A stretch of 64,000 nt of DNA, taken from assembly GCF_024623785.1 (NCBI RefSeq), contig NZ_JANKBZ010000005.1, positions 310,001-374,000 on the forward strand, read 5' to 3'. Below, piece after piece: positions 19,897 to 32,371 of this stretch. The notes beneath the pieces are model-generated. The model worked only from the letters and a program-made list of their open reading frames with translations. It was not told the DNA's origin and ran no database searches. This DNA comes from Archangium lipolyticum. GTDB lineage: Bacteria; Myxococcota; Myxococcia; Myxococcales; Myxococcaceae. How positions within the stretch are numbered: position 1 is the first letter of the stretch; each line of letters starts with the position of its first letter. The position numbers were made by a program, and so were the translations under genes.

Positions 19897-20628
19897 TCAG
19901 GCCGGGGCCGCCAGCGCGAGCACCCGGCCGTGCTCCCCCGCCAGCAGGAGTCCGGTCAGCACAGCCGGGGGCACGCCCAGCTCCGGCGGGAGCCCCTCCG
20001 CCTCGAGGGTCAGCCGCAACGACAGGGCTTCTCCGCTCGCGGAGAGCAGCACCGGCCGCACCGCCACGCGTTGCAGGGGCGCGCGCAGCCCCACGCCCCA
20101 GACCTTCAGCACCGCTTCCTTCATGGCCCAGGCGGCGGTGACCGGCTCCACCCGGCCCGCGCAGGGAGCGGCATAACCCTCGTGCTCGCCCGGAGCGAAG
20201 GCCTCCTCCAGGAAGGCCCCGCCCGCCTCCACCCGCTGCTCCAGGTCCACGCCCAGCGCCCCCCCTCGCGCGACCGCCGCCACCGCCAGCCCCTCCGAGT
20301 GGGAGATGGACAGGGCGACGTCCGGCGCGGAGGGGAAGAAGGGCCGCCCTTCGTCCTGTCCTCCGGGACGGGCGAGGACCTCCGCGTGTGCTCCCGGAGC
20401 GAGGAGCGCCAGGGCGCGATGGGCCGCCACCCGGCCCGCGATGAGCTCGTGGCGCCGCTTGTCGAGCCTGCACCGGGCCAGGGCTTCCCGCTCGGCGGGC
20501 CAGAGCGAGGCGGCGTCCTCCCGCCCCACCTCGCACCAGCCGAGCACCACCTCCCGGCCCGTGGGCAGCGTGAGCCGGGAGGGTCTCGGCCCGGAGCCGC
20601 TCACCGCGGACGCAACCGCCGCAGCCAC
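19897..20628 (-). CDS. Sfp-type 4'-phosphopantetheinyl transferase
   Basis: A 243-residue PPTase that loads the CoA-derived arm onto carrier domains. Family motifs are present: GRVAAHRAL (65-73), SISHSEG (107-113), the Mg-binding GVDLE (D128, E130) and WAMKEAVLK (167-175; K170, E171, K175). Its start overlaps the 3' end of the large KS-KR-DH gene by 28 bases, so it is the last gene of the synthase operon and very likely serves that synthase. This matters because the two canonical ACPs of the operon lack the usual serine. Confidence 0.95.
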   Translation of the reverse strand: MAAAVASAVSGSGPRPSRLTLPTGREVVLGWCEVGREDAASLWPAEREALARCRLDKRRHELIAGRVAAHRALALLAPGAHAEVLARPGGQDEGRPFFPSAPDVALSISHSEGLAVAAVARGGALGVDLEQRVEAGGAFLEEAFAPGEHEGYAAPCAGRVEPVTAAWAMKEAVLKVWGVGLRAPLQRVAVRPVLLSASGEALSLRLTLEAEGLPPELGVPPAVLTGLLLAGEHGRVLALAAPA

Positions 20629-29900: not shown

Positions 29901-32371
29901 GTCACGTCGCCCAGGGCGGTGCCGGTGCCGTGGGCCTCCACCAGATCCACGCTCGCGGAGGGGATGTTGGCGGCGGCCAGCGCGCGCTTCATCGCCAGGG
30001 CCTCGCCCGCCTCGCTGGGGGCGAGCACGGAGCGGCCCTTGCCGTCACTGGAGCCGGCGACGGAGCGGATGACGGCGTGGATGCGGTTGCCGTCGCGCTC
30101 GGCGTCGGACAGGCGCTTGAGGACGAAGACGCCCGCGCCCTCGCCGGGGATGAAGCCGTCCGCCTTGGTGTTGAAGGGGAAGCTGCCGTGGGCGGACAGC
30201 GCGTTGAAGCGGCAGGCCGCGATGAAGAACTCGGGCAGCATGTCGCACCACACGCCGCCGGTGAGGACGACGTCGGCCTCGCGGTGCTGCAACATCTTCC
30301 ACGAGGCATGGAGCGCGGCGTGGGCGCTGGCGCACGCCGAGTCCGTCACCATGTGCGGCCCGTGGAAGTCGTACAGGTTGGCGATGCGGCCGGCGTTGAG
30401 GCTGCCCAGGTAGCCGGTGAGGCTGTCCTCGCTGATGGGTGGGAGGTTCGCCTTGTAGCGCTCCTCGGCGCGGCGCAGCACCCCGTCGCGCGTGGCCGCC
30501 GGCACGCCGGACTTCTCCAACGCCTGGCTCAGCTCGTGGGCGAACTCGGACCAGTGGGTGCGCGTGTCCGCCTGGAACTTCTTGCCCTGGTAGGGCAGGA
30601 AGGCGAAGGACATGGCCACCCGGTCGCGGTTCCACTTGTCCGGGGAGAAGCCCGCGTCCTGGAGCGCCTCGTCCGCGCACCACAGCATCAGCACGTGCGA
30701 GGGATCCAACGAGGCCCAGGCCGCCGGAGGAATCCGCATCTCCAGGCTCGGCTTGGGGAACTCGTCCACGAAGCAGCCCAGCTTCGTGTAGGCCTTGTCC
30801 TTGCGGTCCGGGTCGTAATAGCGCTCGATGTCCCAGCGCTCCTTGGGAATCTCCCGGGTGGCGTCGTAGCCCTCCAGCAGGCGCTTCCAGAAGTCCTTCA
30901 CGTTGGAGGCGCCGGGGAAGATGCCTCCCAGGCCGATGATGGCCAGCGGCTCGGCCTTGGGGCGGACATGGACGGCGGGAGCCTGGCGGCGCTCGGCGGG
31001 GCGGTAGGCCTCCAGCACCGCGTGGAAGTTGTTGCCGCCGAAGCTGAAGGAGCTGACGGCCGCGCGTGCGGGGGCGTCGGGGCGGTAGGGCTGGGCCTTC
31101 TTCGGCACGAAGAAGGGCGTGCGCTCCATCTCCAGCTTCGGGTTGACCTGGTCCACGCCGGGCTGCGGGGGGATGACGCCGTGGTGCAGCGAGAGCACGG
31201 CCTTGAGGAGTCCGGCCGCGCCCGCTCCGGCGCGCAGGTGGCCGATGTTGGCCTTCACCGAGCCGAGCGCGATGGAGCCGCCCGGCGCGCCCGTGTACAC
31301 GCTGGCGAGCGCCCGCACCTCGCTGGCGTCGCCCACCTGGGTGCCCGTGGCATGGCACTCCACGTACTGCACCGAGCCCGGCTCCACGCCGGCGTCCTCG
31401 AGCGCGCGGCGCATGGCCATGGCCTGGCCCTCGCTGCGCGGCGCCACCAGCGACTTGCCCCGGCCGTCGGATGAGCCGCCCACCCCGCGCACCAGCGCGT
31501 AGATGGTGTCCCCGTCCCGCTCCGCGTCCGACAGGCGCTTGAGGGCGAACATGGCCACCCCCTCACCGAGCAGGGTACCGTCCGCCTGCTCGGCGAAGGG
31601 CCGGATGGCGCCCTGGCTGGAGAGCCCGCCCATCTTGGAGAAGGCGATGAACTCCAGCGGCGTCAGCATCTCGCTCGCACCGCCGGCGACGGCCAGGTCG
31701 AACTCGCCGTCACGTAGACCCCGCACCGCCAGGTCCAGGGACGCCAGGGAGGACGCGAAGCCCGCGTCCACCGAGTAGTGCAGCCCCTTGAGGTCGAAGT
31801 GCATGTTGATGCGCCCGCAGGCCACGCTGGCCGAGGCGCCCACCACGTTGTCCTCGCTGACCTCCTTGAGGCGCGCGCGCAGTTGCATGGCCGTGACGTC
31901 CAGCAGCTCCTGCTGCCTGGCGGCCGGCAGGGCCTGGAACTCGTCCGTGGCCCTCACCGCGTCCAGCATGTCCTCCAGGCGGATGCGCATCCCGCTGTCG
32001 CGCTGCCAGCCCAGGCCCGTGGCGCCCAGGATGATGGACGTGGAGTCCTTGGGGATGTTGCGCACCTCGGACAGCGCCTGGGTGCCCGCCTCGAGGATCA
32101 TCCACTGCAGCGGGTTGACCTGCTGCGCGTCGGACGGCGGCACCTTGTACTTGCGCCAATCAAAGACGAAGTCCGTGATGAAGCCGCCCAGCTCGCAGTG
32201 CGTCTTGTCTGGAATTGAGCGGTCCGGGTGGAAATGGAGTGCGTGGTTCCAGGCGCGGGCGGGAACCTTCGTGAGCGACACCCTGCCTGCGGTGATGCTG
32301 TTCCAGAAGTCCGAAACGCGAAGGGCGTTGGGCAGGACGCAACCCAGTCCCACCACGGCGATGGCTTCCAT
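26915..32371 (-). CDS. iterative PKS subunit: inactive KS - KS - AT - carrier-like - ACP - ACP - carrier-like
   Basis: An 1818-residue synthase. KS1 (about 1-455) reads DAGFASSL, so the active Cys is Phe205, yet H340 and H378 remain, as in decarboxylating loading KS domains. KS2 (about 474-930) is intact: C680, H814, H853. The AT (about 1035-1355) has nucleophile S1133 in GQSAGE and HGYHS (H1238), closest to malonyl-type ATs. A degenerate carrier-like domain (about 1375-1432) has S1394 in EPASAMK. Two near-identical ACPs follow (about 1482-1560 and 1642-1720), each with LGIDTVKQVDI, so Thr1519 and Thr1679 replace the phosphopantetheine Ser. A final carrier-like helix bundle (about 1763-1816) has no Ser. 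Ala/Pro linkers separate the carriers. ATG 32371 begins exactly at the KS1 fold. Confidence 0.95.
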   Translation of the reverse strand: MEAIAVVGLGCVLPNALRVSDFWNSITAGRVSLTKVPARAWNHALHFHPDRSIPDKTHCELGGFITDFVFDWRKYKVPPSDAQQVNPLQWMILEAGTQALSEVRNIPKDSTSIILGATGLGWQRDSGMRIRLEDMLDAVRATDEFQALPAARQQELLDVTAMQLRARLKEVSEDNVVGASASVACGRINMHFDLKGLHYSVDAGFASSLASLDLAVRGLRDGEFDLAVAGGASEMLTPLEFIAFSKMGGLSSQGAIRPFAEQADGTLLGEGVAMFALKRLSDAERDGDTIYALVRGVGGSSDGRGKSLVAPRSEGQAMAMRRALEDAGVEPGSVQYVECHATGTQVGDASEVRALASVYTGAPGGSIALGSVKANIGHLRAGAGAAGLLKAVLSLHHGVIPPQPGVDQVNPKLEMERTPFFVPKKAQPYRPDAPARAAVSSFSFGGNNFHAVLEAYRPAERRQAPAVHVRPKAEPLAIIGLGGIFPGASNVKDFWKRLLEGYDATREIPKERWDIERYYDPDRKDKAYTKLGCFVDEFPKPSLEMRIPPAAWASLDPSHVLMLWCADEALQDAGFSPDKWNRDRVAMSFAFLPYQGKKFQADTRTHWSEFAHELSQALEKSGVPAATRDGVLRRAEERYKANLPPISEDSLTGYLGSLNAGRIANLYDFHGPHMVTDSACASAHAALHASWKMLQHREADVVLTGGVWCDMLPEFFIAACRFNALSAHGSFPFNTKADGFIPGEGAGVFVLKRLSDAERDGNRIHAVIRSVAGSSDGKGRSVLAPSEAGEALAMKRALAAANIPSASVDLVEAHGTGTALGDVTEARATHAAYCEGPRNGPILLGSVKSNIGHLNAAAGTAGMMKVTLALENAFIPQSLKCEPLNPKIPEGVEVVATAREWAQPQDGGPRRAGVSGFGVGGANFHAILEEYRPSPKKPAGVTEGSTSEGGEPRLVAVSGADARTCLAQLDRLCELPEPLEDTRQTPEGPFRMALTARSREELRKKRDFLRKAAQTGGDLEFLAQSGIFVGGPESPLRGAPVAITFPGQGGQYANMLRPLAQAYPLVARTLDEADAIYVRLTGRTLTSGFFTNDPGSYQQNDEDIHAAVFLVNVALYRLLSAHGIHAEYLIGQSAGELAALVAAGSLSLEEGLRAIHSRTLAVLEMPTEDPGQMAALSCPAEKVPELLAGLPGYATLAADNGPRACIVSADRHALPELVKRCEAQGIECTVLAVSHGYHSELIGAARPAYQRVLEGLRFRKPQACLVSTIDAAPYGNRPPSEYPAFLSSQFVEPVRLRKAIEAAHQRGARIFIEAGPKWSLTQFTRETLKGKTHGAIASIHPKVGDMEQFKRLVGHAFVNGVGKLSPDEAGGFSPADVEETLLQMPLEGVLEPASAMKVALALGEEFGVDASVARIEDLRTFESIIALVERLRAETPTSTSVAAQALRHAPPAPMAAQAPKQAPAPARQPEPAAAPDIDSVALREEVRVVLLDNVVAKTGYPEDMLDLDLDLEADLGIDTVKQVDIFSRTREHFGVPRDPNRSLREFNTLGKVIEHIVERTLALSAGAAAAKAPAAPARPSAPPLPAPAPAAARPAAAPVIPPAPRPTAPAMTVSRPSAPAPAARAAAPAPAPAKPTANLEDLSDQVRAVLLKNVVEKTGYPEDMLELDLDLEADLGIDTVKQVDIFARTREYFGVPRDPNRSLREFNTLRKVVEHIVERVHSTSATERVAAAVQSAAVSVPPAQVESLGRSGHGSNGLGGSRSVREALLAMDLRQAGVKNDELRKLGEAMASRLGTTVPEADKVRTLQELLQHLVKDR
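27207..27910 (-). repeat. duplicated ACP-coding segment with a 480-bp period
   Basis: The DNA coding the two ACPs is almost identical over roughly 200 bases (compare 27240-27400 with 27720-27880), including most third codon positions. The offset is exactly 480 bp (160 codons). This points to recent duplication or ongoing gene conversion of the ACP module rather than purely protein-level selection. Confidence 0.85.

Follow-up and report, generated by a model that had tools for sequence, protein, structure and literature searches.

The operon described here lies on the minus strand of a 64,000-nucleotide window of Archangium lipolyticum DNA (the whole stretch that we analysed, lying on contig 5 in a genome of 12.6 Mb), where its four genes run from 32371 to 19897 and occupy 12.5 kb (Table 1). 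Domain calls were made with Pfam and by motif reading. Gene 1 encodes two ketosynthase (KS) domains, an acyltransferase (AT) and two acyl carrier protein (ACP) domains; gene 2 encodes a protein resembling a degenerate dehydratase (DH); gene 3 encodes two further KSs, a ketoreductase (KR) and a DH; and gene 4 encodes a phosphopantetheinyl transferase (PPTase). In both large proteins, a KS that lacks the catalytic Cys (KS0) is followed by a KS in which Cys and both His are present.

Operon organization and active sites

The original prediction, made from the DNA letters and their translations, had described a compact operon of four genes with two dead and two active KSs, and both the coordinates and the domain content proved correct. 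Its account of the gene junctions was right in part: a 3 bp gap between genes 1 and 2 and a 4 bp overlap (ATGA) of genes 2 and 3 are found in all 10 compared genomes, but the 28 bp overlap that it gave for genes 3 and 4 exists only when GTG at 20628 is taken as the start. At the starts used, this last overlap is 4, 8 or 26 bp in the 10 genomes. The prediction had also stated that enoyl reductase (ER), thioesterase and acyltransferase are all missing. Pfam detected no separate ER, thioesterase or terminal acyltransferase among the four operon genes, to which this statement applies (outside the operon, eleven window genes were scanned). However, a malonyl-type AT is present in gene 1 and only a terminal one is absent; the prediction itself had listed an AT, contradicting its own statement. 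PF13561, a generic short-chain dehydrogenase/reductase family labelled ‘enoyl-ACP reductase’, does match gene 3, but it does so within the KR stretch and hence does not indicate a separate ER. The ratios of nonsynonymous to synonymous substitution (dN/dS) against one relative (G047) are 0.21, 0.25, 0.09 and 0.11 for genes 1–4 respectively, which argues that the operon is not decaying; against a second relative (G074) they lie between 0.33 and 0.47.

Table 1. Features of the operon and of its neighbourhood in the window.
Feature	Coordinates	Strand	Size, residues and basis
Gene 1	26915..32371	-	1818 aa; KS0-KS-AT-ACP-ACP and C-terminal tail; Pfam; orthologues in 10 genomes
Gene 1 KS0	31007..32371	-	Phe for catalytic Cys; both His retained
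Gene 1 active KS	29567..30961	-	Motifs SACASAH, HGTGT, NIGH
AT domain	28289..29239	-	GQSAGE, SHGYHS and conserved Arg; Pfam
ACP1	27692..27922	-	Thr codon 27815-27817 at phosphopantetheine Ser site
ACP2	27224..27424	-	Thr codon 27335-27337 at phosphopantetheine Ser site; Pfam
Gene 2	25961..26911	-	316 aa; DH-like but degenerate; no Pfam match at cut-off
Gene 3	20601..25964	-	1787 aa; KS0-KS-KR-DH; Pfam and motif reading
Gene 3 KS0	24615..25964	-	Thr for catalytic Cys; both His gone
Gene 3 active KS	23160..24587	-	Motif reading
KR domain	21525..22442	-	Active-site Ser and Tyr present (by eye); Pfam
Gene 3 DH domain	20604..21512	-	His motif and DAAFQ Asp (by eye); Pfam
Gene 4, PPTase	19897..20628 (or start 20604)	-	Pfam
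Trp-halogenase-like flavoprotein	16390-17802	-	Pfam Trp_halogenase, 31.3 bits (cut-off 21)
OPT transporter	14226-16313	-	Adjoins flavoprotein gene

In gene 1, all 10 KS0 sequences read have F or Y at the Cys position and keep both His. In gene 3, the 11 sequences read have T, S, A or I at the Cys position, all 11 have lost the His of HxTGT, and all except that of SJ496 have lost the second His as well. The conserved Arg of the AT is the residue that binds the malonyl carboxylate. Gene 2, read by eye, has no catalytic His motif and has Glu in place of the catalytic Asp. It gave no Pfam family at cut-off (the PS-DH family, at E 0.069, falls below that standard), no meaningful match in the PDB and no match in the plasmid collection; an hhalign profile comparison with the DH of gene 3 aligned most of its length weakly (268 columns, E 0.0009, probability 22.7%). 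An AlphaFold2 model of gene 2, built from ten close homologues, reached a predicted local distance difference test score (pLDDT) of 39.4 and was set aside.

Distribution of the operon and a larger relative

The original prediction had proposed a search for the same gene order in other genomes. Gene 2 occurs in 10 of 145 genomes of the order, six of Archangium and four of a second genus (g6), in a common neighbourhood, and all ten have the same four-gene order. Two ACPs are present in nine of the ten. The KR-DH half of gene 3 is 76–98% identical in the other nine genomes and in a fragment of an Archangium metagenome-assembled genome (G121, L082), and 42–43% identical in G157, G013 and G014; we take G013 and G014 to be Anaeromyxobacter dehalogenans 2CP-1 and 2CP-C. 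This search covered 195 genomes of the phylum, 116 of which had some match at 1e-20, the remainder beyond these loci being other KRs. Among nine genomes of their genus, the ACP motif was found in G013 and G014 only.

A contig pattern search (404 stretches, 298 relatives, the best 80 kept, 79 loci) returned, among others, two Archangium loci, the Archangium metagenome-assembled genome already mentioned, two species of Ectobacillus (E. panaciterrae and E. funiculus) and Deltaproteobacteria SJ496, which is the G157 locus. Anaeromyxobacter was not among these best 80 of 298 relatives, although G013 and G014 match. Both Ectobacillus species belong to the Bacillota (L086, L087), and both carry four genes in the same order with an open reading frame (ORF) of 172 or 196 aa at the place of gene 2, for which Pfam gave no match at E 0.01. 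The flanks of the two Ectobacillus operons look unrelated by eye, and among 397 genomes sampled from the order to which Ectobacillus belongs, only the seed matched in full. In SJ496/G157, G013 and G014, gene 1 is instead longer by about 270 aa where gene 2 sits. When the profile of gene 2 was compared with those of its positional counterparts in other loci, no significant match emerged (E 0.084–0.23), and homology of the additional 270 aa to gene 2 was not established; the equivalence of these parts is therefore judged from their place and overall shape. Wherever operon loci were read, the PPTase gene follows gene 3. The occurrence of one gene order in two phyla points to horizontal transfer of the operon as a unit.

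A larger myxobacterial cluster, in G078 (L173/L174) and G076, encodes a discrete AT, KS0-KS-AT, five ACPs with a KR, a protein that joins an AAT domain (PF03417) to a DH, KS0-KS, KS-KS-DH, a PPTase and a DH. Variants are carried by G099 (genus g19) and G065 (genus g5), which we take for Myxococcus and Corallococcus. All five ACPs of G078 are of the Thr type described below, and we presume that G078 is Stigmatella aurantiaca DW4/3-1. In PMC12211065, the dawenol cluster is listed as BGC0000044 of DW4/3-1. Furthermore, PMC12224551 describes dawenol as conserved in Stigmatella, with an unidentified type I polyketide synthase in Archangium and in Melittangium. Osswald et al. 2014 is cited in PMC10435759 and PMC8767328, and the second of these describes dawenol as a polyketide resembling polyunsaturated fatty acids (PUFAs). 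We consider it very probable that the larger cluster is the dawenol cluster, and if so, a synthase with all-Thr ACPs makes a polyene in nature. The acyltransferase-like AAT and DH protein of the larger cluster (L173/L174, L079, L080, L081, L072) could be its release step.

Threonine at the carrier site

Both ACPs of the window read LEADLGIDTVKQ, with Thr where the Ser that bears phosphopantetheine is expected; the motif of this synthase family is LGIDTVKQ. Of 14 solved carrier proteins listed by phmmer, the five whose alignment was shown all have Ser opposite the window Thr. The classical mark of an ACP, Ser at the phosphopantetheine site, is absent from the ACPs of the window. Thr occupies this site in 53 of 55 ACP matches from 22 sources in two phyla, which argues that it is fixed rather than accidental; the two matches set aside are a degenerate repeat (G065_11114) and an out-of-frame reading at a contig end (G153_12591). 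The Thr matches include those of synthases with four or five consecutive ACPs.

The pattern GID-[WSN codon]-VKQ has a match in 84 of 189 Myxococcota genomes, and by our own count the 145 listed matches of the GID-x-VKQ type in this phylum comprise 102 Thr, 43 Ser and no other residue. The Thr matches sit in operons of this family, in the larger myxobacterial cluster and, in many other cases, beside KR matches of PfaA-like synthases (placements compared by eye, with sequences read for G153, G162 and G163). The 43 Ser matches (GIDSVKQ) occur once per genome. Four of these Ser-ACPs were read (G056, G046, G121 and G103; L180–L183): each stands in an open frame that lacks a KS motif and aligns with the window ACPs throughout, Ser lying opposite Thr, so that Ser- and Thr-ACPs coexist within one phylum. 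In the 79 loci of the contig pattern search, nine of nine VKQ-type matches, from five operon loci, have Thr, and the other motif types have six Ser and one Thr. The GID-x-VKQ pattern was absent from the six genomes of other phyla that were searched. Among 299 Bacillota genomes, 5 contained it: the Ectobacillus seed with two Thr, and the others with one Thr, one Ser, one Cys and one Arg reading.

These observations bear on whether the Thr-ACPs are carriers at all. Ser is the accepted attachment residue, and according to PMC13291983 the required Ser is present in every ACP studied there; since Ser-ACPs are also present elsewhere in these genomes, a separate Ser-ACP might do the work in trans and the ACP repeats of the operon might be structural. 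We think this unlikely: decayed carriers should tend to vary at the site, which the Thr-ACPs of two phyla, including those in rows of four or five, do not, and a PPTase gene follows gene 3 in the operon loci read. We infer instead that Thr carries the phosphopantetheine arm. No report of Thr-linked phosphopantetheine was found in the open-access library searched, which did not cover the dawenol paper.

Ketosynthase phylogeny and predicted fold

The KS tree was built from 61 of 77 extracted KS rows, 16 near-copies and fragments being omitted. Each of the four KS positions of the operon forms one clade with 100% ultrafast bootstrap across the two genera, G013, SJ496 and Ectobacillus. Furthermore, one clade (support 97/91) holds all active KSs and seven KSs from the larger cluster; modular KSs fall outside it, as do those located near PfaD in G047. 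The simplest reading is that an ancestral KS0-KS pair was duplicated as a pair. In the larger cluster, the first KS of G076, G099 and G065 has Y at the Cys position, an aromatic residue as in the KS0 of gene 1. Nine rows of the tree have odd composition. The distance to true PUFA KSs can be read only roughly from this tree, because references are few, some branches are long (PFA47_KS2/KS3, G162_KS1/KS2 and SJ496_g3KS0 among them) and the PfaD locus of G047 is possibly a hybrid.

The KS0-KS didomain of gene 1 (950 aa) was modelled from 28 sequences with a pLDDT of 92.2 and a predicted template-modelling score (pTM) of 0.93. Foldseek ranked 6riw, the PfaC KS and chain-length factor (CLF) didomain, first in the PDB, with 966 aligned columns and TM scores of 0.81/0.83; the other 49 listed matches reach 0.40–0.43 of the query. 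6riw superposes over both domains, so that KS0 and KS, the inactive domain preceding the active one, are predicted to pack like a KS:CLF heterodimer. PfaC thus resembles the model in having a pair of KS folds that pack against each other within a single chain; however, the alignment places the active Cys of 6riw in the first domain, and that of the window operon lies in the second, so the order is reversed.

Comparison with known systems

In the locus taken for it, the dawenol-type polyketide synthase (PKS) shares with the operon KS0-KS pairs, a cis AT with GQSAGE, tandem Thr-ACPs, a KR of the same type, a DH and a PPTase. It differs in having three KS pairs, five ACPs (4–5 across loci), a discrete AT, more DHs and the AAT (PF03417, C45-type acyltransferase) protein, whereas the window operon makes do with two pairs, two ACPs and four genes in 12.5 kb. 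RerA and RerB of Rhodococcus erythropolis PR4 resemble the operon in combining KS, AT, two ACPs, KR, DH and a PPTase without an ER, but RerA is a single polypeptide with one KS and no KS0, and RerB adds a thioesterase (PMC11563203). The products of RerA (KS-AT-ACP-ACP-KR-DH) in Rhodococcus are hepta- to nonaenes of up to C22, released by the thioesterase (PMC11563203).

The fused type I proteins of the window operon may be set against type II polyene systems, which consist of discrete proteins. There, a KS:CLF with KR and DH but no ER gives conjugated polyenes such as ishigamide and the aryl polyenes; one structure presumably of this kind, 6kxf, was among the rows of the VIA-align search. The enediyne synthase PksE has KS-AT-ACP-KR-DH-PPTase on one polypeptide, in contrast to the four separate genes and KS0-KS pairs of the operon.

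A competing class is the PUFA-type (Pfa-like) secondary lipid synthases. Here, such a synthase would make a long fatty acid that is saturated, hydroxylated or skipped-unsaturated, and genes at other places in the genome would provide its ER and its release enzyme. The operon has the features that mark secondary lipid synthases, namely tandem ACPs, a KR, KSs and, by eye, a PPTase with x(G/D)xP; its EGRP and LSISH correspond to the motifs that PMC3098273 gives as x(G/D)xP and hShxH. Types M–T of Shulse and Allen likewise share tandem ACPs and a nearby PPTase with P1a and P1b′ motifs. One of these types may have the same layout as the operon; Archangium, Anaeromyxobacter and Ectobacillus are absent from the two tables of PMC3098273 as read. 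The best NCBIfam match is PfaA (TIGR02813), and the first-ranked fold is the Pfa KS-CLF. However, the TIGR02813 scores of 900 and 451.4 bits lie below the curated cut-off of 1010.1, the FabA-type DH family is absent from the Pfam scan of the operon genes, and the KSs stand apart in the tree from those near the PfaD gene of G047, though with few references and long branches. Furthermore, a PfaD-type ER exceeds its curated cut-off in only one of eight operon genomes (G047, elsewhere on the chromosome) and has no match in the genome of the window. A Pfa-like synthase is accordingly an improbable explanation. That one PfaD gene (G047:C1, near 7164534; L161, L166, L167) sits amid PKS-type KSs and Ser carrier motifs, possibly in a hybrid of PKS, nonribosomal peptide synthetase and PUFA synthase.

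The prediction that the layout belongs neither to PUFA synthases nor to heterocyst glycolipid synthases is consistent with the TIGR02813 scores and with the description of Type F in PMC3098273, from which the layout differs. Its expectation of a chain that keeps its double bonds also agrees with what we found: a KR and a DH without an ER, no PfaD over cut-off in seven of eight operon genomes, and the analogy with RerA (PMC11563203). Four matters had escaped it, namely the larger relative, the KS:CLF-like pairing of its ‘dead’ KSs, the recurrence in Bacillota and, quite unforeseen, the Thr at the carrier site.

Neighbouring genes

The flavoprotein and OPT transporter genes of Table 1 neighbour the operon in 10 of 10 genomes of the two genera, and a FAD-type oxidoreductase ORF lies about 2 kb beyond the operon of E. 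funiculus (L087 15855-17096, by eye), which would, if anything, favour a tailoring role. It is conceivable that such neighbours act as tailoring enzymes on a polyketide-type chain that is processed further, and the Trp_halogenase score is above its cut-off. The presence of the flavoprotein gene says little, because the whole neighbourhood is conserved in the two genera; moreover, a chemotaxis receptor gene on the opposite strand separates it from the operon, and no similar gene was noted when the surroundings of the operon were read in E. panaciterrae, SJ496, G013 and G014. We regard tailoring by these neighbours as very unlikely. A link between the operon and the chemotaxis receptor gene convergent to it, in the window and in G013, was rejected, because the two receptors match at best with 24% identity along a stretch of 285 residues in the signalling half. 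Elsewhere in the window, a cytochrome P450 gene lies on the plus strand at 55828-57183 (Pfam).

Discussion

We conclude that the operon encodes a new form of iterative synthase related to the dawenol-like KS0-KS type and, by the tests made, not a PUFA synthase. Our preferred explanation, which we hold at a probability of roughly 0.7, is a compact dawenol-like iterative type I synthase that makes a conjugated, coloured polyene. Each KS0-KS pair would fold as one intramolecular KS:CLF-like heterodimer, and the AT would load malonyl units on the tandem carrier domains, whose arm would most likely be put on Thr by the PPTase of the same operon. The KR and the DH of gene 3 would act in every round, with gene 2 perhaps serving as a structural partner of the dehydration part. 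As no ER is present, the double bonds would stay in the chain, giving a linear conjugated polyene acyl product. The KS0 of gene 1, which retains its His, may prime the chain by decarboxylating malonyl-ACP, and the second KS0-KS pair may succeed the first once the chain has grown longer. Release would be by hydrolysis or by an enzyme encoded elsewhere.

Several observations weigh against this explanation. The KS0s join the first-position KSs of the larger cluster weakly (89/73 and 63/93), and two of the latter, G076_KS5 and G099_KS7, retain Cys. Most of the 50 VIA-align rows span just the second domain, and 6riw is not one of them, although these rows neither support nor deny the pairing. The number of ACPs varies, with one in G073 and only one seen in E. 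funiculus. The two Ectobacillus genomes have weak, partial PfaD-family matches below cut-off, and the negative result for an ER covers the PfaD type only, as no search was made for FabI-type ERs or thioesterases acting in trans. Finally, the assignment of the larger cluster to dawenol combines our presumed strain identity, one over-threshold match in that genome and the conservation in Stigmatella described in PMC12224551.

More generally, we give about even odds to the existence of a carrier family in Myxococcota and Bacillota in which Thr replaces Ser, served by a PPTase of its own operon and acting in fused CLF-KS synthases, with the operon of the window as its minimal four-gene version. 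In our view, the carrier site deserves more attention than the operon layout. If the ACPs are modified on Thr, they would be a natural exception to the textbook Ser rule, with a dedicated activating enzyme. If this is true, the carrier and its PPTase would form an orthogonal pair, and annotation by Ser motifs would misjudge a group of carriers. Furthermore, the operon, with four genes in 12.5 kb, is compact enough to be expressed in full and recurs in unrelated bacteria, so that it could show what a fused CLF-KS polyene synthase minimally requires.

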